Assembly (NCBI GenBank): GCA_902793325.1
Contig: CADBCY010000031.1
Span: 1 to 38,514, forward strand
Direction of reading: 5' to 3'
DNA: 38,514 nucleotides
Source: an uncultured Eubacteriales bacterium
Lineage (GTDB): Bacteria > Bacillota > Clostridia > Christensenellales > Aristaeellaceae
Part shown: in pieces, positions 24,407 to 38,400 of the stretch
How positions within the stretch are numbered: the stretch's first letter is position 1
Layout: every line of letters starts with the position of its first letter
Position numbers and translations under genes: made by a program
The notes under the pieces: generated by a model
The model's database searches: none
Told to the model about the DNA's origin: nothing
Seen by the model: the letters and a program-made list of their open reading frames with translations, nothing else

Positions 24407-24527
24407 GATGACCCACCCCGGCAGAGGCCGGACCGCACCCGATGCTCGCATAAACCGCGCCGACATATCCCGGCGCAGGGAAATGATCGATATGCTTCCG
24501 TTTTGCCCAGAGAGGAATGACCATACC

Positions 24528-27500
24528 ATGAAGACGTTGTTTGAGCGGATCGCCACCGGAAGACTTCGGCAATCCGGCGTCCTGAAGCGGACGCTGGCGC
24601 TGCTCTTTTGCCTGGCCGTCGCGGTATCGCCCGCGGGCCATCTCGGCCTGGCCTCGGAAATCGCGGCGGAGACGGTGTCGTCGCCGTCCTGCGGCATGCC
24701 GTCGCACCGTCACAGCGAGGCGTGCTACGACGATCGCAACCTGCTCGTGTGCGCGCAGGAGGAGCACGACCACGCGGACGATTGCTACGAGAGCGTCGAC
24801 ACGGGCTCGGCGATCGACAGGCCGGTGGACGAACCCGACGAGAAGTCGGAAACGCTGGAGGATTTCGAGATCGGCGCCGCCACCGCGGGCGACGCGACGT
24901 CGAAGCCCGGCGACAATACCCGGATAAAGGCCGTCTACGAGCTGGGCGGCGAACGCCTCGTGCGGCTCAGCCAGATCCTCAAGGACACCGGGCTTCCCGT
25001 GCGGATCAAGAGCGTCACGTCCGTCGAGCAGGCCAGGGATCCGAAGGGCACGGGGGACAAAATCGCCATCAAGCCGCTGGATCACGATTACGCCATCTCC
25101 GTGCCGAGCGGCTTCACCCGCGCCAAGCTGGCCGTGACCGCCGGCGAGGATCGATGGATCATCACGCTGAAGGGCGGCAACTTTACCAACTGCGTCGCCG
25201 GGGAACCCGAGGGCGCGTCCATGGAGGGCGACCCCACCGAACCGGGCGCGACGACCTCCGACACTCCTTCCGACGATCCTTCCGACTATCCTTCCGACGA
25301 TCCCTCCGACGATCCTTCCGACGATCCTTCGGATGATCCTTCCGACGATCCTTCCGACGATCCTTCCGACGATCCTTCGGATGATCCTTCTGACGATCCT
25401 TCCGACGATCCCTCTGACGATCCTTCCGACGATCCTTCCGACGATCCTTCTGACGATCCTTCTGACGATCCCTCTGACGATCCTTCCGACGATCCTTCGG
25501 ATGATCCTTCCGACGATCCTTCGGATGATCCTTCTGACAATCCTTCCGGCGACGTCATCGAGGCGATTGTGGACAATCCCGACGAGCTGCCCGGCGAGGT
25601 GTCGTCCGACGAGCCCGTTGAGGTGATTGCGGAGGACCCCGTCGCGCGCTACGCGGCGACCATCAATACCGCCGGGCTGGAAGCGCCGTACTCGCTGCGG
25701 GCGCTGATGCTGGCCGCGGCGGAGACCGCCGGCGCGGACGCGACCGAACCGGGCGACCCCGCCGGGTGGAAAATCGAATACGACGCGGCCTGCCTCGCCA
25801 TAGAAGCGGTGGACGGGGATTATACCGTGACGCCGCTCGAAGGGTTTGAAAGCGCCGCGATCACCGTGGACGACGGCATCGCCGTGTATGAAATCACGCT
25901 GACCTCCATGGCCGAGGCCGAGAGCGCGCCCATCGTGCCCGAGGTGTTCACCGAGGAGTACGACCTGAGCGCGACGCCGCTGCCGCTGTCCCTGCGGGAG
26001 ATGGTCAACCGAGCGCGCCCCGAAGCCGCGGACGACGCCACGGAAGCGGCGTGGACCCTGGAATACGACGCGGCGCTGCTGTCCATCGACGGCGACGCGG
26101 TCATGCCCATCGACGACATTGACAGGACCGTCCTCACCGTGCACATCGGGGACGAGACCTATAAGTTCACGCTGCTCAATTACGCGGGCGACATCCCCGC
26201 GCTGAAGCTGGACATCGCGGTCATCGAACCGGCGGACGAGCGCCTGACGCTGCCCGGTTCCGCCGCCGGCAACGCCGACATGCTCTCCGGCGCGGACGCG
26301 CAGGCGGAATGGGCCGATGTCCAGGCGTGGCTCCGGGATCGGTCCGCTTCGCCGAGCGAGGACGTGGCCGAGGCGAACGCGAAGAAGGCCCCCGCCGCGC
26401 GCCTGCGCAAGGCCGCCGTCCGCGGGGAAGAAGAGATCGCCGAGACCAACGCGGTCGGCGGCGAAACCGACGCGGCGGAGGATTCGGATCGCGGGACGGC
26501 CGAAGCGCCGACGGTGCGCTCGCGCATGGAGCTTCGGGCGTTTGACATCGCCCTGGAGAACGTGGACCCGGACGAATACGAGGACGGCTTCCGCGTCACG
26601 GTCACCCTGCCCTCCCCCGTGCTGGGCCGGGATTTCCACCTGTACCACATCCACCGCGACGGCGCCGGGCAGAAGGAGATCTCCGAGATCCTGCCGGGCG
26701 ACGGCTTCGCCCTCGAGTGCGGAAACGCGGTGGGCGACATGACGTCGGTCACCGGCTTCCGGTTCATCACCGACCGCTTCAGCAGCTTCATACTGGCCTA
26801 CACGGTCGACTTCGAGTTCCGCGGCTACGCCTACACGCTCGAGGGCGGCGGGGCGCTGCTGCTGTCGGAGCTGTTCTCGGCGCTGGAGATCCACGAAAAC
26901 GCCGCCGACGCCGTCAGGGTCAGCTTCTCCGATCCCTCGCTGCTGCGCGCGGAACCCGTGCAGGACGACGCCGACGCGCTGTGCGACTGGAAGCTCATCA
27001 GCCTGCAGCCCTTCACCACCGAGGAGGTCCTGACCGTCGTCCTGTCGGACGGCCGGAAGATCTGCATCCAGGTGACCGACGCGCAGATCAAGGCGCAGGT
27101 GCTGACCGCCGAAGGGGAAACCTACGAAATCACCGTCACCTATGACGAAGACGCGGGCATCCCCGACGATGCGGAGCTGATCGCCGTCGAGGCCGAGGCG
27201 GACAGCGAAGCCTACCAGGCCGCCGTGGACGGCGCCGTTCGCGCGCTGTCCGGCGCCGGGGGCGTGGCCTCGGTGGATCAGGCGCGCGTGTTCGACATCT
27301 CCATCGCGTACAACGGCGAGCGCATCGAGCCGCTGACGCCCGTGCAGGTGCAGGTGGACTACGTGGACGCCGTCTCCCTGAGGTCGGACGACCGCTTCCG
27401 CGTCGTGCACTTCGCGCAGGACGGGACGCAGGTGCTGACGCCCACGATCGCCGATGCGGCGGAGGACGAGGTTTCCTCCTTCTCCTTCGAAGCGGAATCC

Positions 27501-30500
27501 TTCTCCGTCTTTGCCTTCGCCAAGGCGAATTACATCGACGCGCTCAACAACAATTCCTTCGCCATCGTGCGGGACAACGGTAAGGACCTGGTCGCGGTCT
27601 GCGGCGCGGTTCACCCCGATTCCGACAACCGGCTGCAGGGCCAGTTCGTCAACGTGCTGCAGCCGGGCGAGCTGACGCCGGTCACCGCCGCGAACGGCAA
27701 CGAGGTGGCGGAGGCGGACATCACCGTCTGGACGTTCCGGCACGTGCGCGACAATATCTACTATATTAAAACCGACGCCGACGCGGGCACGCGGTACATG
27801 TACCTGACGCCCTCCGGCCTGACGTTGAGCGAGGATCCCTGCGAGATCGAGGTCTACCCCATCGGCAATAAGGGCAACCTGAGCGACTTCGTCCGGCTGC
27901 GCTGCGCGGACAACACCCGGTACATGATCAACCTCAAAAACGGCAACCCGGACGGCGGTTTCCAGGCCTCCACCGCGACGGACGCGAACTCCTCGTTCGC
28001 GCTGTACAGCTCCGTGGACAACATGGATCACCCGGAGCAGCGGGCGAAGAAGCTGTCCGCATCCGAGCTCGTCAGCGGCAGGTCCTACTTCATCTACCAG
28101 CGCGTCTACAACGACCGCATCGACGCCTACGAGTACTACGTGGTCGCCGGCGACGGCAGCCTGGTCTACGCCTTCGACGACGGCGACATCATCAACTTCC
28201 GCACGGACGCCTCCACGACCTGGCAGTTCATCGAATACTGCGACGAGCAAACCGGCAAGCCGACCGGCGAATACGACTTCTACAACGCGGTCAACAGGAC
28301 GTACCTCGCGCCGCAGACCGGCGGCGCGCTCGCCGACGAAGCGCGCGGCGTGCTGATGCCCGGCAGGAAACAGGGCGAGTACAGCTCCGCCATCATCGGC
28401 CGGAGCGACGCCGACAACGCCTACAGGGAGCTGCGCCTCGACGTGCAGGACGGCAAGCTGGTCCGCGGCGAGGATACGGGCAAGTCGCTCTTCCTGTTCG
28501 CCGAACCGACGGAGCTCGAGTTGGGCCGGCTCAACACGGTCAAGACGGTGAACAGCGCCGCCGCGGGCATTACCATCGAGATGTACGACTTCCCGGACCG
28601 CCTCATGATGGACCTCTACGACGACAACAACTGGTACAAAGACGGCAAGTTCAAGCAGGGCCTGCTGAAGCCGGTACTGGGCGAGGACAAGCTGCCCGTC
28701 TCGCACACGGGCACGTCCCTCTCCGGGCTCTATAACGACGAGTACTTCGTCGGCAATGCGAACCACCTGTTCCTCAAGAGCATCTACGACGGCACGGGCT
28801 ATTACGAATACAACTGCTTCAACAACTTCGCGGAGTACGACGTCGGCTCCGGCAACTTCACCGTCTACGACGCCATGGGCGTCCCGAGGAACGGCCAGGG
28901 CGGTTCCGTGTCCTCGTTCTACCGCGGCAACTTCCTGCCCTACAACCACATCGATCCCTCGCGCCCGGCCACCAACACCCGCCTGTACGATTCGCTGTAC
29001 GGCTGGGTCTCCCTGGAGAACCCGATCTTCAAGGACACGATGTACCTGATGCAGGAGGAAGTGGACTACTACTTCGGCACCATCGTCAAGGCCAACTTCC
29101 TCCAGGCGAAGGACGGCCTGGACGAGAACAAGGCGCCCATCGTCTATGAGTTCATGGGCGACGACGACCTGTGGGTGTTCATCGACGACGTGCTGGTGCT
29201 CGACCTTGGCGGCATCCACGGCACCATCTCCGGCGACATCAACTTCAAGACCGGCAAGGTGAACGCCGGCGGCCAGACCACCACGATCCGCGAGTGCTTC
29301 AAGAAGGCCAATCTCTTCCCGGACGGCACGCCCTGGGACGACGCCCTCGTCGGCGAGTACTTCAAGGGAGACACCTTCGTCGACTACTCCAGCCACAGCT
29401 TCAGGATGTTCTACCAGGAGCGCGGCGCGACCGCGTCCACGCTGAAGGTCCGCTTCAACCTGCCCGTGGTGAAGCGCGGCTCCTTCGCCGCCGAGAAGCG
29501 GCTCACCGGCACCGACCAGGGCGCCTACGCCAACGTGAGCTTCGCCTACCAGGCCTTCGTGAAGATCGACGGGGCGGACGTTCCCCTGTACCCGGGCCTC
29601 ATACTGTCCGTCGACGGGCAGGTCGTCGATCCGGAGCACGCCACGGCAGAGCAGAAGGCCAACGCCGTCCGCGTAGTCTACGAGAATACCGACGAGGACG
29701 TGCCGTTCAAGGACAAGGCCAGGATCGGCGACAACGAGTATACGAACGTATTCGAGCTGAAGCCCACGCAGGCCGCGGTGTTCTCGGGCCTCCCCGAGGG
29801 CGTGCCCTACTACGTGCAGGAGATCAACGTCAGCGGCGAATACTACGATTCCGTCATCATCAACGAGGCGGACCTCGGCAGCGAGCAGGACATCTCCGAG
29901 GATGAAACCGTCACCGCCGTCAGCACCGCCAAGACTATCCTGCAGCGGCAGCGCCTGGTGTTCTCCAACCACTGCTCGTCGGCAAACCAGCGCGACCTGC
30001 GCATCACCAAGCGCGTCGAGAACCCGCAGGACGACGGCGCGACGTTCGCGTTCCGCGTGCTCCTGGAGGGCAACGAAGGCCGGCTGATCCCCTACAGCCG
30101 CGGCGACTACTACGTGGTCAGGCCCGTCGAAACGGACGGCGGCACGGAAGAGCACTACTTCACCACCGTGGACGGCGTGCTGACCGACGGCGGCAAGGAT
30201 CCCGTGAAGTGCGGCCAGTCCGGCGAGTCCGGCGTCATCGCCGGCATTCCCGACGGCTACACCGTCGTCATCCGCGGCCTGCTGTCCGGCGTGAATTTCC
30301 GCGTGGACGAGATCCGCAACCCCGCCGGCTACCTCATGGTGTCCAACGAAACGGTCGAGGGCACCTGCGAAGCGCCGACCCTTGAAGGCGCGGCGGGCAG
30401 GCTCATGCTGCGCACGGACGCCGAAGTGATCGTCACCAACCGCGTCTACAGCACCATCGTCGCCGACAAGGTCTGGCAGAGCGGGGATGCAGTGCAAAAG

Positions 30501-31334
30501 CACGGCGACCTCCTGCTCGCGCTGTTCCGCCGCGAGGGCGACGCGCTCGTGCCGGCGGAGAAGGGCGAGGTGCTGAAGTCGGACGCCGTGCAGACCGTCG
30601 CCGCGCCGGACACGCAGGCGATCTGGTACCTGGATCTGCCGGAGGACGGCACGCTTGAAGACTACGTCGTGCGCGAGGTGCGCGTGGACGGCGATACCGT
30701 CGCGCCGGTCGAAGCGGGCGAGACCATCGCCGTGCGCAGCGAGATCGCCGCGGGCACAGAGGCGAGCGAGACGTTCGTCTACGTCGTTTCCTATGAAGCG
30801 GGCAGCGTGGAGAGCGTACCGGAGAGCGCGATCACCACGCGCACGGACACCGTGACCAACGCGCTCCCGCACGTCTCCTGGCGGAAGGTGGACGCCGATG
30901 ACGGTCGCTTCCTGGCCGGCGCGGTGTTCGACCTCTACCGCGTGACGGACGGCGAGCCGGCGGATACGCCGCTGCTCGCGGGGCTGACCTCCGGAAACGA
31001 CGGCCTGCTGCGCGACGCGGACGGTGCCTCGGACTTCCTGCTCCCGGCCGGCGACTACTGGCTGGTGGAGGTGCACGCGCCCGACGGCTATGAGCTCCCC
31101 GACGACCCCGTGGCGTTCACGTTCTCCGACGCCGGCGTCATCCGCGGCGACGAGACCTTCGCCTATGATCCGGACAGCGGGCTGTTCGCCGTGACCCTCA
31201 CCAACGTCGCCAAGCCCACGCTCCCCGATACCGGCGGCCTCGGGACCGGCGTCTTTACCGCCCTCGGCCTGCTGCTGCTCGCCGGCGCGTACATGCTGTT
31301 CGCCGCCGATCGCAGGCGGAAGGAGGGCCTGTAA
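24528..31334 (+). CDS. giant LPDTG-anchored surface adhesin with Ser-Asp-x-Pro repeats, fibro-slime domain and Cna-B-like domains
   Basis: 2268 residues from ATG 24528 (AGAGAGGAATG upstream), chosen because it places a long signal peptide at the N-terminus (KRTLALLFCLAVAVSPAG). In order: two CxxxxHxHxxxCY motifs (55-67, 75-87); a beta-rich repeat unit (about 133-220); 24 units of S-D-x-P (244-339); more copies of the unit (about 372-462, 472-555, 760-850); beta-trefoil-like regions (about 1005-1340); a fibro-slime/PA14-like domain (about 1347-1651, with GDDDLWVFIDDVLVLDLGG); three or four Cna-B-like domains (about 1652-2230; WRKVDADD and WLVEVHAPDGYEL suggest Lys-Glu isopeptide bonds). Then LPDTG at 2232-2236, a membrane helix and a RRRKEGL tail: the sortase signal. 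Likely binds host, diet or partner-cell surfaces. No sortase gene is in the window. Monocistronic, with its own promoter and terminator. Confidence 0.93.
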   Translation: MKTLFERIATGRLRQSGVLKRTLALLFCLAVAVSPAGHLGLASEIAAETVSSPSCGMPSHRHSEACYDDRNLLVCAQEEHDHADDCYESVDTGSAIDRPVDEPDEKSETLEDFEIGAATAGDATSKPGDNTRIKAVYELGGERLVRLSQILKDTGLPVRIKSVTSVEQARDPKGTGDKIAIKPLDHDYAISVPSGFTRAKLAVTAGEDRWIITLKGGNFTNCVAGEPEGASMEGDPTEPGATTSDTPSDDPSDYPSDDPSDDPSDDPSDDPSDDPSDDPSDDPSDDPSDDPSDDPSDDPSDDPSDDPSDDPSDDPSDDPSDDPSDDPSDDPSDDPSDNPSGDVIEAIVDNPDELPGEVSSDEPVEVIAEDPVARYAATINTAGLEAPYSLRALMLAAAETAGADATEPGDPAGWKIEYDAACLAIEAVDGDYTVTPLEGFESAAITVDDGIAVYEITLTSMAEAESAPIVPEVFTEEYDLSATPLPLSLREMVNRARPEAADDATEAAWTLEYDAALLSIDGDAVMPIDDIDRTVLTVHIGDETYKFTLLNYAGDIPALKLDIAVIEPADERLTLPGSAAGNADMLSGADAQAEWADVQAWLRDRSASPSEDVAEANAKKAPAARLRKAAVRGEEEIAETNAVGGETDAAEDSDRGTAEAPTVRSRMELRAFDIALENVDPDEYEDGFRVTVTLPSPVLGRDFHLYHIHRDGAGQKEISEILPGDGFALECGNAVGDMTSVTGFRFITDRFSSFILAYTVDFEFRGYAYTLEGGGALLLSELFSALEIHENAADAVRVSFSDPSLLRAEPVQDDADALCDWKLISLQPFTTEEVLTVVLSDGRKICIQVTDAQIKAQVLTAEGETYEITVTYDEDAGIPDDAELIAVEAEADSEAYQAAVDGAVRALSGAGGVASVDQARVFDISIAYNGERIEPLTPVQVQVDYVDAVSLRSDDRFRVVHFAQDGTQVLTPTIADAAEDEVSSFSFEAESFSVFAFAKANYIDALNNNSFAIVRDNGKDLVAVCGAVHPDSDNRLQGQFVNVLQPGELTPVTAANGNEVAEADITVWTFRHVRDNIYYIKTDADAGTRYMYLTPSGLTLSEDPCEIEVYPIGNKGNLSDFVRLRCADNTRYMINLKNGNPDGGFQASTATDANSSFALYSSVDNMDHPEQRAKKLSASELVSGRSYFIYQRVYNDRIDAYEYYVVAGDGSLVYAFDDGDIINFRTDASTTWQFIEYCDEQTGKPTGEYDFYNAVNRTYLAPQTGGALADEARGVLMPGRKQGEYSSAIIGRSDADNAYRELRLDVQDGKLVRGEDTGKSLFLFAEPTELELGRLNTVKTVNSAAAGITIEMYDFPDRLMMDLYDDNNWYKDGKFKQGLLKPVLGEDKLPVSHTGTSLSGLYNDEYFVGNANHLFLKSIYDGTGYYEYNCFNNFAEYDVGSGNFTVYDAMGVPRNGQGGSVSSFYRGNFLPYNHIDPSRPATNTRLYDSLYGWVSLENPIFKDTMYLMQEEVDYYFGTIVKANFLQAKDGLDENKAPIVYEFMGDDDLWVFIDDVLVLDLGGIHGTISGDINFKTGKVNAGGQTTTIRECFKKANLFPDGTPWDDALVGEYFKGDTFVDYSSHSFRMFYQERGATASTLKVRFNLPVVKRGSFAAEKRLTGTDQGAYANVSFAYQAFVKIDGADVPLYPGLILSVDGQVVDPEHATAEQKANAVRVVYENTDEDVPFKDKARIGDNEYTNVFELKPTQAAVFSGLPEGVPYYVQEINVSGEYYDSVIINEADLGSEQDISEDETVTAVSTAKTILQRQRLVFSNHCSSANQRDLRITKRVENPQDDGATFAFRVLLEGNEGRLIPYSRGDYYVVRPVETDGGTEEHYFTTVDGVLTDGGKDPVKCGQSGESGVIAGIPDGYTVVIRGLLSGVNFRVDEIRNPAGYLMVSNETVEGTCEAPTLEGAAGRLMLRTDAEVIVTNRVYSTIVADKVWQSGDAVQKHGDLLLALFRREGDALVPAEKGEVLKSDAVQTVAAPDTQAIWYLDLPEDGTLEDYVVREVRVDGDTVAPVEAGETIAVRSEIAAGTEASETFVYVVSYEAGSVESVPESAITTRTDTVTNALPHVSWRKVDADDGRFLAGAVFDLYRVTDGEPADTPLLAGLTSGNDGLLRDADGASDFLLPAGDYWLVEVHAPDGYELPDDPVAFTFSDAGVIRGDETFAYDPDSGLFAVTLTNVAKPTLPDTGGLGTGVFTALGLLLLAGAYMLFAADRRRKEGL
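25257..25544 (+). repeat. 24 tandem 12-bp units coding for Ser-Asp-x-Pro
   Basis: Twenty-four in-frame 12-bp units inside the adhesin gene; x is Asp in 21, and Thr, Tyr or Asn in the first, third and last. Synonymous changes (tcc/tct/tcg, gac/gat) separate the units, so the array is not freshly expanded. Change of copy number would keep the frame. Confidence 0.95.
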
Positions 31335-31914: not shown

Positions 31915-32718
31915 GTGAACGGAAGCATCAACCGCTTCGACGAGCTGCCGGAGGGCATGGAGAGCATCCGGCCCGTCCCCCAGCAGCGGATCATCGCCCG
32001 CATGGACGAGTACATGAGCCGCCGGGACTACGCCGGCGCGGAGCGGCACCTGCTCTATTGGCTGGAGGAAGCGCGGCTGGGCCACGACCGGCGGGGCGAA
32101 CTCATGCTGCGCAACGAGCTGGTGGGCCACTACCGCAAGACCGGGGACCGGGACAGGGCGCTCGAACAGGTGGACGCGGCGCTGGCGCTGCTGGAAAAGC
32201 TGGACTTCGGCAACACCCTCAGCGCGGGCACGACCTACGTCAATTCGGCCACGGCCCTGTGCGCCTTCGGCCAGTACGAGCGCGCGCTGGCGCTGTTCCG
32301 CTGCGCGCGGAGCCTGTACGAGGGCAGCGCACTCACCGGGCCGGAGCTGCTGGGCGGGCTGTACAACAACATGGCGCTGGCCTGCGCGGCGCTGGAGCGC
32401 TGGGACGAGGCGCGCGGCCTGTACGACCTGGCCATGGCGCAGATGGGAAAGCTGCCCGCCGGGGCGCTGGAGCAGGCCATCACGTGCCTGAACCTCGCCA
32501 ACCTCGCGGAGGCCCGGGACGGCATGGAGGCCGCCGAGGCGGAGATCTACGCGCTCCTCGACCGCGCGGCCGCGCTGCTCGCGACGCCCTCCCTCCCCCA
32601 CGACGGCTACTACGCCTTCGTGTGCGAAAAGTGCGCCCCCACATTCGACTACTATGGCTGGTTCGCGCAGGCGGAACAGCTTCGGACGGAGGCCGCGGAC
32701 ATCTATGAACGGCCTTGA
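31915..32718 (+). CDS. tetratricopeptide-repeat protein, partner of DUF4037 gene
   Basis: 267 residues from a GTG at 31915 (AAGGAGG upstream). All-helical; several TPR-like units are visible (ELVGHYRKTGDRDRALEQVD, ATALCAFGQYERALALFRCA, NNMALACAALERWDEARGLY, CLNLANLAEARDGMEAAEAE). No catalytic motif or signal peptide; a cytoplasmic protein-protein scaffold. Its stop overlaps the next start by 14 bases, which implies stoichiometric production with the DUF4037 protein and probably a complex (inference). Confidence 0.85.
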   Translation: MNGSINRFDELPEGMESIRPVPQQRIIARMDEYMSRRDYAGAERHLLYWLEEARLGHDRRGELMLRNELVGHYRKTGDRDRALEQVDAALALLEKLDFGNTLSAGTTYVNSATALCAFGQYERALALFRCARSLYEGSALTGPELLGGLYNNMALACAALERWDEARGLYDLAMAQMGKLPAGALEQAITCLNLANLAEARDGMEAAEAEIYALLDRAAALLATPSLPHDGYYAFVCEKCAPTFDYYGWFAQAEQLRTEAADIYERP

Positions 32719-33646
32719 GTTGGCCCGCGCCTACTTTGACGCCTTCGGCATGCCCATGCTGCGGGAACAGTTCCCGGAGCTGCTGCCCCACGTGGCCGCG
32801 GGGCTGTTCGGCAGCGGTTCGGAGTGCTTCGGCTTCGACGACGAGATCTCCCGCGACCACGACTTCGAGCCGGGCTTCTGCCTGCTGCTGCCCGGCGAGG
32901 ACGTCGTGGATCGCCGCGCCGCCTTCCTGCTGGAGCGCGCCTACGCGAAGCTCCCCCGGGAATTCATGGGGCTCCGGCGCGGGCTGATGGCCCCGGCGGG
33001 CGGGCCGCGCCGCGGCGTGCTGCGGGCGGCGGAGTTCTTCCTGGACAAGGTCGGGTCCGGGGACGGCGTGCTGACGCTCGGCCAGTGGCTCTCCCTCCCC
33101 GCCCACGCGCTGGCGGAGGCGGTCAACGGCGCGGTGTTCTACGACGGCAGCGGCGCGGTGACGGCCGTGCGCGCGCGGCTGGCCGCCTATCCCGAGGACG
33201 TGCGGCGCAAGAAGCTGGCGGGGCACATGATGCTGATGGCCCAGTCCGGGCAGTACAACTACGCCCGCTGCCTGGCCCACGGCGAGACCGGCGCGGCCCA
33301 GCTCGCCGCCGTCGAGTTCGCCCGCCACGCCATGGCGGCGGTGTTCCTGCTGAACGGCGTCTACCAGCCCTACTACAAGTGGGCTTTCCGGGCGATGCGC
33401 GGGCTGCCCCGGCTCGCGCTGCTGGCGGAGCTGCTGGAGTACCTGCTGACCACCGACAACGACGGCGCGCTGGCCGCGGCCAAGGCGGACGTGATGGCGG
33501 GCATGGCGGCGGACATCATCGGCGAAGTGACCGCGCAGGGCCTCTCCCGGGCGACGTGCGGCGAGCTGGAGGGCCACGCCCGGTCCGTCAACGACGGCAT
33601 CGCCGACCCGCGGCTGCGCAACATGAACCTGCTGGCCGCGGTGTAA
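32705..33646 (+). CDS. DUF4037 protein, nucleotidyltransferase-like
   Basis: 313 residues from ATG 32705 (GGAGG 11 bases upstream, inside the TPR gene). The N-terminus carries a polymerase-beta-type nucleotidyltransferase signature: GLFGSGSE (Gly-Ser, 36-39) followed by Asp51-His-Asp53 (SRDHDFEPGF), the two metal-binding aspartates. The C-terminal half is helical (KLAGHMMLMAQSGQYNYARC, EFARHAMAAVFLLNGVYQPY) and resembles the helical bundles attached to such enzymes. Possible roles are nucleotide transfer to a small molecule, RNA or protein; nothing here decides which. Confidence 0.85.
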   Translation: MNGLELARAYFDAFGMPMLREQFPELLPHVAAGLFGSGSECFGFDDEISRDHDFEPGFCLLLPGEDVVDRRAAFLLERAYAKLPREFMGLRRGLMAPAGGPRRGVLRAAEFFLDKVGSGDGVLTLGQWLSLPAHALAEAVNGAVFYDGSGAVTAVRARLAAYPEDVRRKKLAGHMMLMAQSGQYNYARCLAHGETGAAQLAAVEFARHAMAAVFLLNGVYQPYYKWAFRAMRGLPRLALLAELLEYLLTTDNDGALAAAKADVMAGMAADIIGEVTAQGLSRATCGELEGHARSVNDGIADPRLRNMNLLAAV

Positions 33647-33778: not shown

Positions 33779-34471
33779 ATGATGCTCCACGGACTGCAAA
33801 AGATGACCCTGCTGGACTTTCCCGGGCGCGTGGCGTGCACGGTGTTCCTGGGCGGCTGCGACTTCCGCTGCCCCTTCTGCCACAACTACCAGCTCGCGGA
33901 CGGCAGCGCCGCGCCGGTGCTGGACGACGCCGAGCTGTTCCGCTTCCTGGAGAAGCGCCGCGGGCTGCTGGACGGCGTGGCCGTCACCGGGGGCGAGCCC
34001 TGCCTGCGGCGCGACCTGCCCGAATTCCTGGGCCGGATCAGGGCCATGGGTTTCGCAGTCAAGCTGGACACCAACGGCGCGCACCCGGCGATGCTCCGGC
34101 GTGTGCTGGAGGAGGGACTCGTCGACTACGCGGCCATGGACATCAAGAACAGCCCGGCGAAGTACGCCGTGACCGCGGGGCTGGATGCGTTCGACCCGGC
34201 GCCGGTGGAAGAGAGCGTGCGGCTGCTGATGGAGGGCCGGGTCGACTACGAGTTCCGCACCACCGTGGTGGACGAGCTGCACGAGGCCGCCGACTTCGAG
34301 GCCATCGGCGCCTGGATCGCCGGGGCCAGGCGCTACTTCCTGCAGGTCTTTACCGACCGGGACACCGTGCCGTTCGGCAACCTGCACGCGCCCTCCGCGG
34401 ACCGGCTCCGGACCTACCTGGAAATCGCCCGCAAGTACGTGCCGGACACACACCTGCGCGGCGCGGACTGA
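33779..34471 (+). CDS. nrdG: radical-SAM activating protein for anaerobic ribonucleotide reductase (NrdG-like)
   Basis: 230 residues. The 4Fe-4S motif CDFRCPFCHN uses Cys27, Cys31 and Cys34; VTGGEP binds SAM. The architecture fits the longer NrdG2-type activase (TIGR02495-like), which installs the glycyl radical in NrdD. Two adjacent ATGs; the first (33779) has GAGGAGG at proper spacing. Its reductase follows 416 bases downstream. I see no promoter in the 132 bases before it, so it may be read from the DUF4037 operon. Confidence 0.9.
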   Translation: MMLHGLQKMTLLDFPGRVACTVFLGGCDFRCPFCHNYQLADGSAAPVLDDAELFRFLEKRRGLLDGVAVTGGEPCLRRDLPEFLGRIRAMGFAVKLDTNGAHPAMLRRVLEEGLVDYAAMDIKNSPAKYAVTAGLDAFDPAPVEESVRLLMEGRVDYEFRTTVVDELHEAADFEAIGAWIAGARRYFLQVFTDRDTVPFGNLHAPSADRLRTYLEIARKYVPDTHLRGAD

Positions 34472-34598: not shown

Positions 34599-34614
34599 CC
34601 ACAATATATTGTGG
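34599..34614. promoter_or_regulatory. distal NrdR-box-like perfect palindrome
   Basis: CCACAATATATTGTGG, a perfect 16-bp palindrome that matches the NrdR consensus aCaCwAtATaTwGtGt at 14 of 16 positions. It is 142 bp upstream of the next box. Confidence 0.65.
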
Positions 34615-34740
34615 CCCGGAAATGCCATGAAAGTATCAAAATCGATCCTTTCGCGGCGAACGCGCGTCCGCGAAGGAAAGACTCGCCCTGATATGACGAG
34701 ATTTTGGCGATGTCACAATAAAGTCACAATCCTCACGCAA

Positions 34741-34756
34741 ACACAATATATGACGT
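34741..34756 (+). promoter_or_regulatory. NrdR box, promoter-proximal pair, first site
   Basis: ACACAATATATGACGT: the left half matches the NrdR consensus fully, the right half partly. It is 32 bp before the second site, the spacing typical of NrdR-box pairs (three helical turns). Confidence 0.72.
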
Positions 34757-34772
34757 TTATTTAATTTGTGAC

Positions 34773-34788
34773 ACACAATATCTAGTTG
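34773..34788 (+). promoter_or_regulatory. NrdR box, promoter-proximal pair, second site
   Basis: ACACAATATCTAGTTG; overlaps the first bases of the nrdD -35, so bound NrdR would block RNA polymerase. Confidence 0.72.
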
Positions 34789-34887: not shown

Positions 34888-37359
34888 ATGTACCAGGTCG
34901 TTAAGCGCGATGGCAAGCTGGTGGATTTCAACATCGTCAAGATCAGCGACGCCATCACCAAGGCCTTCGACGCCATCGGCAAGCAGTATCATCCCAGCGT
35001 CATCGAGCTGATTGCGCTGCACGTCACTTCCGATTTCGACAGCAAGATCCACGACGGCAAGATCACCGTCGAGGACATCCAGGACAGCGTTGAGAAGGTG
35101 CTGTCCGAGTCCGGCTATGCCGACGTGGCCAAGGCCTACATCCTGTACCGCAAGCAGCGCGAGAAGGTGCGCAACATCAACTCCACCCTGCTCAACTACA
35201 AGGACCTGGTGGACAACTACCTGCAGATCAACGACTGGCGCGTGAAGGAGAACTCCACGGTGTCCTACTCTGTGGGCGGCCTGATCCTGTCCAACTCCGG
35301 CGCCATCACCGCCAACTACTGGCTGAGCGAGGTCTACGACGAAGAGGTGGCCGAGGCGCACCGCAGCGCCGCCATCCACCTGCACGACCTCAGCATGCTC
35401 ACCGGCTACTGTGCGGGCTGGAGCCTGAAGCAGCTGATCCAGGAGGGCCTGGGCGGCGTGCCGGGGAAGATCACCTCCTCCCCCGCCAGCCACCTCTCCA
35501 CGCTGTGCAACCAGATGGTCAACTTCCTGGGCATCATGCAGAACGAGTGGGCCGGCGCGCAGGCGTTCTCGTCCTTTGACACGTACCTGGCGCCCTTCGT
35601 GCGCGTGGACAACCTGTCGCAGAAGGAAGTCAAGCAGTGCGTGCAGAGCTTCATCTACGGCGTGAACACCCCCAGCCGCTGGGGCACGCAGGCGCCGTTC
35701 TCGAACGTCACGCTGGACTGGGTGGTGCCGAACGACCTGAAGAACCTGCCGGCCATCGTGGGCGGCAGGGAGATGGACTTCACCTACGGCGACTGCCAGA
35801 AGGAAATGGACATGGTGAACAAGGCGTTCATCGAAGTCATGATCGAGGGCGACGCCAACGGCCGCGGCTTCCAGTACCCCATCCCCACCTACTCCATCAC
35901 CCGCAACTTCGACTGGTCCGAGACCGAGAACAACAAGCTGCTGTTCGAGATGACCGCCAAGTACGGCACGCCCTACTTCTCCAACTACATCAACTCCGAC
36001 ATGGAGCCCAGCGACGTGCGCAGCATGTGCTGCCGCCTGCGTCTGGACCTGCGGGAGCTGCGCAAGAAGTCCGGCGGCTTCTTCGGCAGCGGCGAGAGCA
36101 CCGGCTCCATCGGCGTGGTGACCATCAACATGCCCCGCATCGCCTACCTGGCGGCGGACGAGGCGGACTTCTACAAGCGCCTGGACGCCCTCATGGACAT
36201 CTCCGCGCGCTCCCTCAAGACCAAGCGCACCGTCATCACGAAGCTGCTGGAGCAGGGCCTGTACCCCTACACCAGGCGCTACCTGGGCCACTTCAACAAC
36301 CACTTCTCCACCATCGGCCTCATCGGCATGAACGAGGTGGGCCTGAACGCCAAGTGGCTGCGCGCCGACATGACCGATCCTCGCGTGCAGCGCTTCACCC
36401 AGGATGTGCTCAACCACATGCGCGAGCGCCTGTCCGACTACCAGGAGCAGTACGGCGACCTGTACAACCTGGAGGCCACCCCGGCGGAGAGCACCACCTA
36501 CCGCTTCGCCAAGCACGACCGCGAGCTGTACCCGGACATCATCACCGCCAACATGAACGGCACCCCCTACTACACGAACTCCTCCCACCTGCCCGTGGGC
36601 TTCACCGAGGACGTGTTCTCCGCCCTGGACATCCAGGACGACCTGCAGGTGCTGTACACCTCCGGCACGGTGTTCCACGCCTTCCTGGGCGAGAAGCTGC
36701 CCGACTGGAAGGCCGCGGCCAACCTGGTGCGCAAGATCGCCGAGAACTACAAGCTGCCCTACTACACCATATCCCCCACCTACAGCGTGTGCAAGGACCA
36801 CGGCTACCTGACCGGCGAGCAGTACACCTGCCCCATCTGCGGCCAGAAGACCGAGGTGTACAGCCGCATCACCGGCTACTACCGCCCGGTGCAGAACTGG
36901 AACGACGGCAAGGCGCAGGAGTTCAAGGACCGCAAGGTGTACGACATCGGCCGCTCCCACCTGACCCACTCCGGCCCCAGGGCGATCACTAACGCCGACG
37001 CCGCCATGGAAGCCGCCTTCGAGCGCCCCTGCTGCGAGCCCGCGCAGGTGCTGATGAAGCCCGAAACCGAGCAGCCCGCCCCGGCCGCGAAGGCCGAAGT
37101 GGTGCCGATGAAGCCGGAGCTCGGCGGCGCGAAGGTCATACTGTTCAAGACCCCCACCTGCCCCAACTGCAAGGCCGCCATGGCCCTGCTGGACCGCGCG
37201 GGCGTGCAGTACGTCGCCGTGAACGCCAACGAGGAGAAGGAACTGGTCGCCAGGTACGGCGTCAAGCAGGCCCCCACCCTGGTGCTGCTGGGCACCGGCA
37301 CCTTTGAAAAGTACCGCGGCGTCAGCGACATCAAGGGCTGGCTGCTGAAGAAGGCCTGA
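34888..37359 (+). CDS. nrdD: anaerobic (class III) ribonucleoside-triphosphate reductase with fused C-terminal redoxin domain
   Basis: 823 residues from ATG 34888 (AGAGGGGG upstream). N-terminal ATP cone (about 1-95, VVKRDGKLVDFNIVKISDAI) for allosteric control. Catalytic barrel: Cys175 (LTGYCAGWS) and Cys381/382 (MCCRLRLDLRELRKKSGG) are the expected active-site cysteines. Zinc site: Cys635, then Cys648 and Cys651 (CPICG). Glycyl radical Gly663 in SRITGYYRPV. Residues about 748-823 add a thioredoxin/glutaredoxin-like domain with C758-P-N-C761 (KTPTCPNCKAAMALL), a cis-Pro (KQAPTLVLL) and a terminal helix; standard NrdD ends soon after the glycyl loop. A Pro/Ala-rich linker (EQPAPAAKAE) joins them. 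The built-in redoxin suggests disulfide-based rather than formate-based reduction. Controlled by NrdR boxes. Confidence 0.94.
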   Translation: MYQVVKRDGKLVDFNIVKISDAITKAFDAIGKQYHPSVIELIALHVTSDFDSKIHDGKITVEDIQDSVEKVLSESGYADVAKAYILYRKQREKVRNINSTLLNYKDLVDNYLQINDWRVKENSTVSYSVGGLILSNSGAITANYWLSEVYDEEVAEAHRSAAIHLHDLSMLTGYCAGWSLKQLIQEGLGGVPGKITSSPASHLSTLCNQMVNFLGIMQNEWAGAQAFSSFDTYLAPFVRVDNLSQKEVKQCVQSFIYGVNTPSRWGTQAPFSNVTLDWVVPNDLKNLPAIVGGREMDFTYGDCQKEMDMVNKAFIEVMIEGDANGRGFQYPIPTYSITRNFDWSETENNKLLFEMTAKYGTPYFSNYINSDMEPSDVRSMCCRLRLDLRELRKKSGGFFGSGESTGSIGVVTINMPRIAYLAADEADFYKRLDALMDISARSLKTKRTVITKLLEQGLYPYTRRYLGHFNNHFSTIGLIGMNEVGLNAKWLRADMTDPRVQRFTQDVLNHMRERLSDYQEQYGDLYNLEATPAESTTYRFAKHDRELYPDIITANMNGTPYYTNSSHLPVGFTEDVFSALDIQDDLQVLYTSGTVFHAFLGEKLPDWKAAANLVRKIAENYKLPYYTISPTYSVCKDHGYLTGEQYTCPICGQKTEVYSRITGYYRPVQNWNDGKAQEFKDRKVYDIGRSHLTHSGPRAITNADAAMEAAFERPCCEPAQVLMKPETEQPAPAAKAEVVPMKPELGGAKVILFKTPTCPNCKAAMALLDRAGVQYVAVNANEEKELVARYGVKQAPTLVLLGTGTFEKYRGVSDIKGWLLKKA

Positions 37360-37382
37360 TCCGAAGGGAACGGGCAACGGAA

Positions 37383-37425
37383 AACAGCGGCTGCCGCCAG
37401 GCGATTTCAGGCGGCAGCCGCTGTT
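37383..37425 (+). terminator. intrinsic terminator after nrdD
   Basis: Perfect 16-bp stem AACAGCGGCTGCCGCC, 11-base loop, followed by ctgtc; 23 bases after the nrdD stop. Confidence 0.85.
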
Positions 37426-37485
37426 CTGTCAGGCCCCGGCGACCTGTCCGATCGCCGGCATCACCACAGCAAAGGATGGTTTACC

Positions 37486-38400
37486 ATGTACGACATCATC
37501 ATCATCGGCGGCGGCCCCGCCGGCATGACGGCGGCGCTGTACGCGCTGCGCAACGGGAAGTCCGCCCTGGTGCTGGAAAAGCAGGGCTTCGGCGGGCAGA
37601 TCACCCACTCCCCCAAGGTGGAAAACTACCCCGGCACGCTGCAGATGAGCGGCAACGAATTCGCCGACCGCTGCCTGGAGCAGATCCTGGCCCAGGGCGC
37701 GGAGATCGAGCTGGAGAAGGCCGTGGGCATCGAGGACCTGGGCGACCGTAAGCGCGTCCGCACCGAGGAGGGCAGCGCCTTCGAGGGCCGCGCCGTGGTG
37801 GTCGCCACCGGCGTCAAACACCGCATGCTGGGGCTGGAGGGCGAGGACGAGCTGGTCGGCGAGGGCATCTCCTTCTGCGCCGTGTGCGACGGCGACTTCT
37901 ACAGCGGCCGCCGGGTATGCGTGGCGGGCGGCGGCAACTCCGCACTGCAAGAGGCCATCCTGCTGGCGGAGAAGTGCAGCGAGGTCGTCATACTGCAGGA
38001 CCTGCCGCAGCTCACCGGCGAGCAGAAGCTGCAGGACGTGCTGGCCGCGAAGGGCAACGTGCGGGTCATCGCGAACACGCGGATCACCCGGCTGCGCACC
38101 GCGGACGGCGAACTGACCGGTGTGGAGCTGGAGGACCGCACCACCGGCGCCACACAGGCGGTGGACTGCGACGGCCTGTTCGTGGCCATCGGGCTGATCC
38201 CCGAGAACGAGCCCTTCGCGCCGCTGGCGGAGCTCAACGACTGGGGCTACTTCGATTCCGACGAGCGCTGCCTGACGAAGACGCCGGGCGTGTACGTGGC
38301 CGGGGACTGCCGGAGCAAGGCCGTGCGCCAGCTCGCCACCGCCATCGCCGACGGCGCCACCGCGGCCCTCGCGGCGTGCAGGTACATCAACGAGGGCTGA
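37486..38400 (+). CDS. trxB: thioredoxin-reductase-like FAD protein
   Basis: 304 residues, TrxB length. FAD-binding GGGPAGMTAA (8-17), redox-active disulfide C131-A-V-C134 (ISFCAVCDGDF), second dinucleotide motif GGGNSALQEA (148-157), and C-terminal GVYVAGDCRSKAVRQLATA for FAD. The usual NADPH 2'-phosphate motif HRRxxxR after the second nucleotide fold is replaced by LQDLPQLTGEQKLQD, so NADPH use is doubtful; NADH, ferredoxin or flavin are alternatives. AAAGGATGG upstream of ATG. Placed right after nrdD with its CPNC redoxin, it is a candidate reductant, though a terminator separates them. Confidence 0.9.
   Translation: MYDIIIIGGGPAGMTAALYALRNGKSALVLEKQGFGGQITHSPKVENYPGTLQMSGNEFADRCLEQILAQGAEIELEKAVGIEDLGDRKRVRTEEGSAFEGRAVVVATGVKHRMLGLEGEDELVGEGISFCAVCDGDFYSGRRVCVAGGGNSALQEAILLAEKCSEVVILQDLPQLTGEQKLQDVLAAKGNVRVIANTRITRLRTADGELTGVELEDRTTGATQAVDCDGLFVAIGLIPENEPFAPLAELNDWGYFDSDERCLTKTPGVYVAGDCRSKAVRQLATAIADGATAALAACRYINEG

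Follow-up and report, generated by a model that had tools for sequence, protein, structure and literature searches.

We analyzed a 38,514-nucleotide stretch of DNA (hereafter, the window), which is contig 31 (CADBCY010000031.1) of the 67 contigs in the 3.23-Mb, about 95% complete genome of an uncultured Eubacteriales bacterium (GCA_902793325.1). It encodes a class III ribonucleotide reductase (RNR), NrdD, that carries its own C-terminal redoxin domain, and the next gene encodes a thioredoxin reductase-like flavoprotein (TrxB). Judged from sequence comparisons, we consider it probable, with a chance of roughly two in three, that this NrdD is an NrdD2-type enzyme whose electron donor is tethered in cis and recharged by the neighbouring TrxB. 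An NrdD with a redoxin in cis is of a kind known in print from one NrdD, and it is the rule here in a large clade.

NrdD and its C-terminal redoxin

The nrdD gene (34888..37359, plus strand; ATG at 34888, stop codon ending at 37359) encodes 823 residues and scores 1154 bits against NF006126 (cut-off 548) and 524.7 bits against TIGR02487 (cut-off 326.35). An ATP cone occupies residues 3-92 (34894..35163, plus strand; PF03477, 7.9e-23), followed by the NRDD catalytic core at residues 121-685 (35248..36942, plus strand; PF13597, 4.2e-191). In order to judge conservation, we used 157 rows of relatives with a readable C-terminus, drawn from contig-database loci plus a family and a phylum sample. 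Of these rows, 122 end in a tail with a CxxC and a cis-proline motif and are called fused on that basis, which makes the CxxC count among them true by construction, while 35 end in tails of only 2-21 residues.

Cys175, the cysteine expected to act in the reductive half-reaction (35410..35412, plus strand), is kept in 122/122 fused and 35/35 unfused rows. The finger loop reads M380-C381-C382-R383 (MCCR; 36025..36036, plus strand), as located in the row alignment, with the meaning of the motif taken from the part of PMC9669993 used here. Glu529 (36472..36474, plus strand) and Gly663, the glycyl-radical site within RITGY (36874..36876, plus strand), are each kept in all 157 rows. Glu529 is the equivalent of Thermotoga maritima Glu495 in a phmmer alignment whose columns were counted by hand, the T. 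maritima numbering being that in the same part of PMC9669993. The zinc site consists of C635, H638, C648 and C651; all four are present in every fused row, and His638 is present in 34/35 unfused rows. The NRDD domain, the glycyl-radical motif and the zinc site place the protein in class III. The third active-site cysteine (C381/C382) together with a glutamate (E529) defines the NrdD2 subtype of Wei (PMC4493059), whereas NrdD1 enzymes have MGCR with neither a third cysteine nor the glutamate; MGCR was found in 8/8 control NrdDs read. The window protein also lies outside the group taken to be thioredoxin-only, which has the glutamate and no methionine opening the finger motif, since M380 is present here and in all 157 rows. 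Active-site residues were considered as a predictor of redoxin dependence and ruled out, because they are identical in fused and unfused rows.

Two further observations concern the finger loop. One fused NrdD (L159) has MYCR, in which the first finger cysteine is replaced by tyrosine, along with a CVNC redoxin, and its genome holds a second, shorter-framed NrdD; this hints that C382 may be the essential finger-loop cysteine. Separately, NrdD frames of about 860-1650 residues, with matches that break near the CC motif, occur in L217, L219, L221-L224, G284, G203, G211, G340 and G364, and these possibly contain inteins at the finger-loop site.

The redoxin domain spans residues 748-823 (37129..37356, plus strand). 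It matches Glutaredoxin PF00462 over residues 750-799 (E 1.4e-8; 35.2 bits vs. a gathering score of 22.9), and AlphaFold2 models it as a b-a-b-a-b-b-a redoxin fold, with a block-mean predicted local distance difference test score (pLDDT) of 90-94 over residues 751-820. The redox motif is C758-P-N-C761 (37159..37170, plus strand), with CPNC in 104 of 107 rows and CPKC in the other 3, and Pro796, in the cis-proline position within 'APT' (37273..37275, plus strand), is invariant in 48 aligned rows. Fold, CxxC and cis-proline thus identify a dithiol redoxin of the glutaredoxin/thioredoxin fold. The domain alone scores below the NCBIfam cut-offs for the NrdH, Grx3, YruB and mycoredoxin equivalogs, the best being 28.7 bits vs. 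88.55 (TIGR02196). It is joined to the core by a flexible linker at residues 686-747 (36943..37128, plus strand; pLDDT below 50 over 702-747), and the distance from residue 686 to the CxxC ranges from 24 to 116 among relatives, with a median of 46. The linker cysteines Cys715-Cys716 were considered as a general relay like the C-terminal cysteines of class I and II enzymes; this was ruled out, as they are cysteine in 29 and 40 of 108 rows, all close relatives, and are lineage-specific.

The initial annotation of this DNA had proposed an NrdD with an ATP cone, C175, C381, C382, G663, zinc cysteines and an extra C-terminal redoxin with CPNC and a cis-proline motif, next to a TrxB-like gene. All of these parts are where they had been placed, and the zinc site is conserved, except that its ligands are three cysteines and a histidine and not four cysteines. 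That the redoxin is fused in cis is also borne out: the fusion is real, conserved and, as described below, confined to a single clade.

Distribution of the fusion and the neighbouring TrxB

The 80 contig-database loci are the best 80 of at least 595 stretches ranked by likeness to a fused query, and nearly all of those 80 matched from residue 1 to about residue 820. The survey rows represent 146 distinct genes, of which 113 are fused and 33 are not, a proportion that reflects sampling around the window. No long tail lacking the CxxC/cis-proline motif was found among the 157 rows. In the phylum sample, 109/299 genomes exceeded the NF006126 cut-off, and 11 of the 44 genes read are fused; these 44 comprise the 30 best matches plus 14 genes whose frame length was uncertain. 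Among L001-L110, the 5′-truncated L045 and L068 were left out of the alignments, and the truncated L074 was left out of the fused/unfused count. On a FastTree phylogeny of the cores, the fused state requires two changes vs. about 31 in shuffles; in this tree many inner branches are open, two long rows meet, details are unsure, and one gene appears twice (L148 = L165). The fusion is the mark of a single clade, within which L146/L164 is the one exception.

Named carriers include Butyrivibrio isolates (e.g. Butyrivibrio sp. FCS014) and many metagenome-assembled genomes of rumen and gut Clostridia. A candidate fusion in Betaproteobacteria, a tblastn match spanning residues 3-822 on an Azospira plasmid, was rejected because the annotation there gives a separate nrdD and nrdG and no redoxin. 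At least 15 of 35 loci on contigs labelled viral (L191-L225) carry the redoxin tail, with the labels as given in the records, such that some of these contigs may be bacterial. Four of them (L201-L204) lack the ATP cone, as confirmed by Pfam for L201. In addition, L189, a GenBank record labelled phage, shows nrdG, nrdD and trxB all in that order and is possibly of bacterial origin.

The TrxB-like flavoprotein of the window (37486..38400, plus strand; 304 residues; PF07992 match) has a CAVC redox motif at residues 131-134 (37876..37887, plus strand). Its fold and sequence are of the thioredoxin reductase type, its closest solved chain by Foldseek being 7jyp of Thermosipho africanus, and it scores 291.2 bits against TIGR01292 for the canonical enzyme, below the cut-off of 343.45. 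At the site of the NADPH 2′-phosphate motif (37984..38034, plus strand), located by sequence and by comparison with 7jyp, it reads VVILQDLPQLTGEQKLQ and has no HRR; in place of the VxxxHRRDx[F/L]R of NADPH-dependent thioredoxin reductases, the site reads VVILQDLPQLTGEQ. The corresponding segments, LQDLPQLTGE in the window and VQNLPYLTAA in 7jyp, are of the same kind, and among the linked TrxBs 65 are without HRR and 16 have it. The pyrophosphate motif GGGxxAxE is GGGNSALQ here, so that GGGxxA is kept and the final glutamate is replaced by glutamine. The thioredoxin-docking loop G[R/K]G reads GEG, with glutamate also in 37/62 relatives lacking HRR, which suggests a partner other than a standard thioredoxin. 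According to the part of PMC5627308 used here, the HRR motif is tied to NADPH, enzymes lacking it use NADH, ferredoxin, F420 or unknown donors, and the T. maritima reductase is cited as preferring NADH. Because the window TrxB has no NADPH 2′-phosphate motif, NADH would be a likelier donor than NADPH.

Gene order links this reductase to the fusion. Among loci with at least 1300 nucleotides of downstream sequence, a trxB starts within 400 nucleotides downstream on the same strand in 65/93 fused vs. 0/20 unfused cases, and within 1300 nucleotides in 73/93 fused cases; the gap is 20 nucleotides or less in 22/93. Likewise, nrdG lies upstream of nrdD in 87/104 fused vs. 0/18 unfused loci, and downstream in 0/106 vs. 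21/28. It should be noted that these contrasts between fused and unfused loci are confounded with ancestry.

The sequences of the two partners also vary together. For the 65 loci with all three genes, we computed pairwise distances and partial correlations given the NrdD core, in a test that has no tree-based null and in which a fast-evolving neighbour would make a stronger control than the slow core and its C-terminal part. The partial correlation between TrxB and redoxin is 0.62, compared with 0.07 between NrdG and redoxin (0.07-0.12 across versions) and 0.19 between TrxB and NrdG. Conditioning on both core and NrdG gives 0.63 for TrxB and redoxin, and when the respective third gene is likewise conditioned on in both cases, the TrxB-redoxin value exceeds the NrdG-redoxin value by a bootstrap difference of 0.68 (0.53-0.82). 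The TrxB-redoxin value is 0.60 without the HRR-type TrxBs (n = 50) and 0.66 after thinning (n = 33), while TrxB and the part of the core nearest the redoxin give 0.10-0.16. In a 78-locus version it is 0.52, a value reached in 0/1000 permutations.

Electron path and alternative explanations

NrdG enzymes make the glycyl radical in NrdD. In the window, NrdG would install it at G663, and each round of reduction would leave a disulfide between C175 and one of the finger-loop cysteines, as in the Neisseria bacilliformis enzyme. The CPNC redoxin on its flexible tail may then reduce this disulfide, in its own or in the partner subunit, a role that the C-terminal cysteine tail fills in class I and II RNRs. 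The CPNC disulfide would in turn be reduced by the neighbouring TrxB, most likely from NADH. Formate is perhaps still usable, since the methionine is kept.

Several observations weigh against this proposal. The L146/L164 NrdD, whose core is 81% identical to that of the window, ends right after the core with neither tail nor redoxin; thus the domain is dispensable to the core. Its genome has two genes for true pyruvate formate-lyase (PFL), and the loss of the domain alongside them is suggestive, with n = 1; no trxB or nrdG was found on its 8-kb contig. Docking of the redoxin onto the core was dropped, because the AlphaFold2 model of NrdD has a mean pLDDT of 68.9 overall and a poorly modelled core (48 close relatives in the alignment). 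Co-transcription of nrdD and trxB is uncertain because a stable hairpin lies between them, and recombination or co-inheritance of the adjoining redoxin-trxB stretch could add to their correlation. In the phylum sample, trxB adjoins only 2 of the 11 fused genes, one of them that of the window; therefore, the linkage is characteristic of the wider clade to which the window's gene belongs. Finally, Met380 is kept in 122/122 fused as well as 35/35 unfused rows, so that formate may still be used, and the frequency of PFL does not differ significantly between fused and unfused relatives (4/36 vs. 8/29; Fisher p 0.11, relatedness ignored).

These frequencies come from 80 genomes: 36 with a fused NrdD (at least 90% completeness), 29 with an unfused one (excluding four more), and 15 chosen by hand in which the NrdD is a distant one (8 read); 7/15 of the latter have a true PFL. 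Within the window's own family, PFL occurs in 1/26 fused vs. 7/15 other genomes (Fisher p 0.0018, relatedness ignored). The source genome, about 95% complete, has no true PFL above the cut-off (TIGR01255 best 168 bits vs. 994) and no match to PF00384 for molybdenum oxidoreductases; it has a formate-tetrahydrofolate ligase and, from the PFL2-3 family, one glycyl-radical enzyme. No PF02867 match and no class I or II enzyme was found in it, and its single NrdD is the only RNR found.

Against this background, formate may be the main turnover reductant, acting through Met380-C175 thiosulfuranyl chemistry as in Escherichia coli NrdD, with the redoxin as an auxiliary donor when formate is scarce. This is the first of two alternatives that we regard as unlikely and still worth weighing. 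It draws on the invariance of Met380, on the four fused genomes with a PFL and on the ligase of the source genome. Furthermore, the part of PMC9669993 used here reports the methionine in 83% of double-cysteine class III enzymes, infers that MCCR enzymes carry the parts needed to use either formate or thioredoxin, and takes only Met-less, Glu-bearing groups as thioredoxin-only, the N. bacilliformis/T. maritima group being SCCR. This alternative fits poorly with the source genome, which has neither the PFL nor the PF00384 match, and with the single PFL among 26 fused genomes of the family, and it leaves the conserved CxxC and the co-varying TrxB unexplained. The 'formate-independent' reductase of the initial annotation is therefore not supported in that form, given MCCR with the glutamate, the retained methionine and the ligase; independence from formate is a plausible property of the fused NrdD because the source genome has no true PFL or PF00384 match.

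Similarly unlikely is a housekeeping role for trxB, in which its product would be a general thioredoxin reductase encoded next to nrdD without serving it, and small thiols or other TrxBs would reduce the redoxin. No trxB adjoins nrdD in 9/11 fused genes of the phylum sample, including four with none in the 4-7 kb downstream, or in 35/35 phage-labelled loci, with flanks of up to 3 kb. The source genome also offers other candidates: a further thioredoxin with a TrxB-like fragment beside it, and a second TrxB-like protein of 277 residues (L112 744-1577), 36% identical over its first part and without nucleotide-binding motifs. The latter presumably resembles ferredoxin-type thioredoxin reductases. 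What speaks for a dedicated TrxB is the recurrent linkage in the window's clade, the co-variation that persists once core and NrdG are accounted for, and the GEG loop, which suggests a non-standard partner. The expectation that trxB linkage would recur in a survey thus held among the fused loci of the clade and failed in the phylum sample, and describing the system as 'self-contained' was too strong, in view of the fused loci without trxB and of the other thioredoxin and TrxB-like proteins in the genome.

It is less probable still that the redoxin serves activation or repair, keeping the cysteines of NrdD reduced for radical installation by NrdG, and has no part in turnover. For the E. coli class III enzyme, the part of PMC4390871 used here describes thioredoxin as activating, and the domain is attached directly behind the glycyl-radical/zinc region. 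The NrdD2-type active-site residues, on the other hand, fit a direct role in turnover, and, after correction for the core, NrdG and redoxin show almost no co-variation. That the fusion arose by chance or through an error of annotation or assembly can be dismissed: the window has it in one open frame, and in the survey 113 distinct genes, taken from independent assemblies that include isolate genomes, share this architecture, with no long motif-less tail seen.

Known systems, locus organization and significance

One close precedent is a glutaredoxin (Grx) domain fused to NrdD in another clostridium, Lachnospiraceae bacterium TWA4. The part of PMC6187632 used here describes Grx domains fused to every RNR component, among them this one grx::nrdD, which it gives as a single case in one line of text, without biochemistry, neighbourhood or phylogeny. 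The same part of that paper shows a fused Grx to be an efficient reductant of the Facklamia ignava class I RNR. The F. ignava Grx-ATP cone-NrdB resembles the window's arrangement in being an RNR subunit with its own working redoxin, but it belongs to class I, with the redoxin N-terminal, on the radical-generating subunit and recharged by glutathione. Our open-access literature search found no account of the clade-wide extent of the class III fusion, of nrdG-nrdD(redoxin)-trxB linkage, of the co-variation or of tests of the fusion.

NrdD2 of N. bacilliformis and T. maritima shares the third active-site cysteine, the glutamate and the class III core with the window protein, which differs in having MCCR instead of SCCR, an ATP cone and the fused redoxin; the reductant of those enzymes is a separate thioredoxin or another extract protein. 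Methanosarcina barkeri NrdD3 reportedly works with NrdH and a ferredoxin-disulfide reductase; as in the window, a class III RNR is paired with a glutaredoxin-like protein, but NrdH is separate and the active site lacks the glutamate. The NrdD3-NrdH pairing is listed in PMC9176816. Lastly, T. maritima thioredoxin reductase, Desulfovibrio vulgaris TR3 and clostridial dcTR1, as presented in the part of PMC5627308 used here, have the TrxB fold and GGGxxA and no HRR, like the window TrxB, which differs from them in being linked to nrdD and not to a free thioredoxin gene, and in having GEG for G[R/K]G.

In the window, nrdG2, nrdD and the trxB-like gene lie in that order on the plus strand. The first encodes a 230-residue glycyl-radical activase (33779..34471, plus strand; 197.6 bits against TIGR02495 NrdG2, cut-off 131.15). 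A pattern search with what we take to be the NrdR-box consensus gave seven matches in the whole window, all within 34599-34788, vs. 0.47 expected. These include the palindrome CCACAATATATTGTGG (34599..34614) and two sites spaced 32 bp start to start (34741..34756 and 34773..34788), none with an assigned strand. The nrdG gene and the NrdR-box-like sites are part of the nrdD unit, and it is probable that nrdD is transcribed from a separate promoter under NrdR control, not shared with nrdG. The 126 nucleotides between nrdD and trxB contain a perfect 16-bp inverted repeat that lacks a clear run of U on the plus strand (37383..37425, plus strand; fold z -3.58, with 1/200 shuffles equally stable), a possible attenuator or mRNA-stability element. 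Farther upstream are a DUF4037 protein (32654-33646), before nrdG, and a 2308-residue LPXTG-anchored surface protein with SpaA-type folds (24408-31334), opposite which runs a 2554-residue frame without a Pfam match.

Reading the locus at the scale of the clade, we would propose, with somewhat more doubt than conviction, an NADH-driven class III RNR machine in which a permanent redoxin replaces the cysteine shuttle, TrxB is re-specialised and deoxyribonucleoside triphosphate (dNTP) synthesis in these fermenters no longer depends on formate but on NADH, and whose NrdD was acquired by phages. Re-specialisation here refers to the lost NADPH site, the altered redoxin-docking loop and the co-variation, and some phage NrdDs would have kept the redoxin without the ATP cone. 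The principle of an RNR with its own redoxin is proven for class I by the F. ignava enzyme, according to the part of PMC6187632 used here; for class III, our search of the open-access literature yielded no such test. Among the common MCCR class III RNRs, the fusion and its co-varying reductase name a concrete candidate electron path. If this path is true, the dNTP supply of gut and rumen fermenters would be tied to a flavoprotein.

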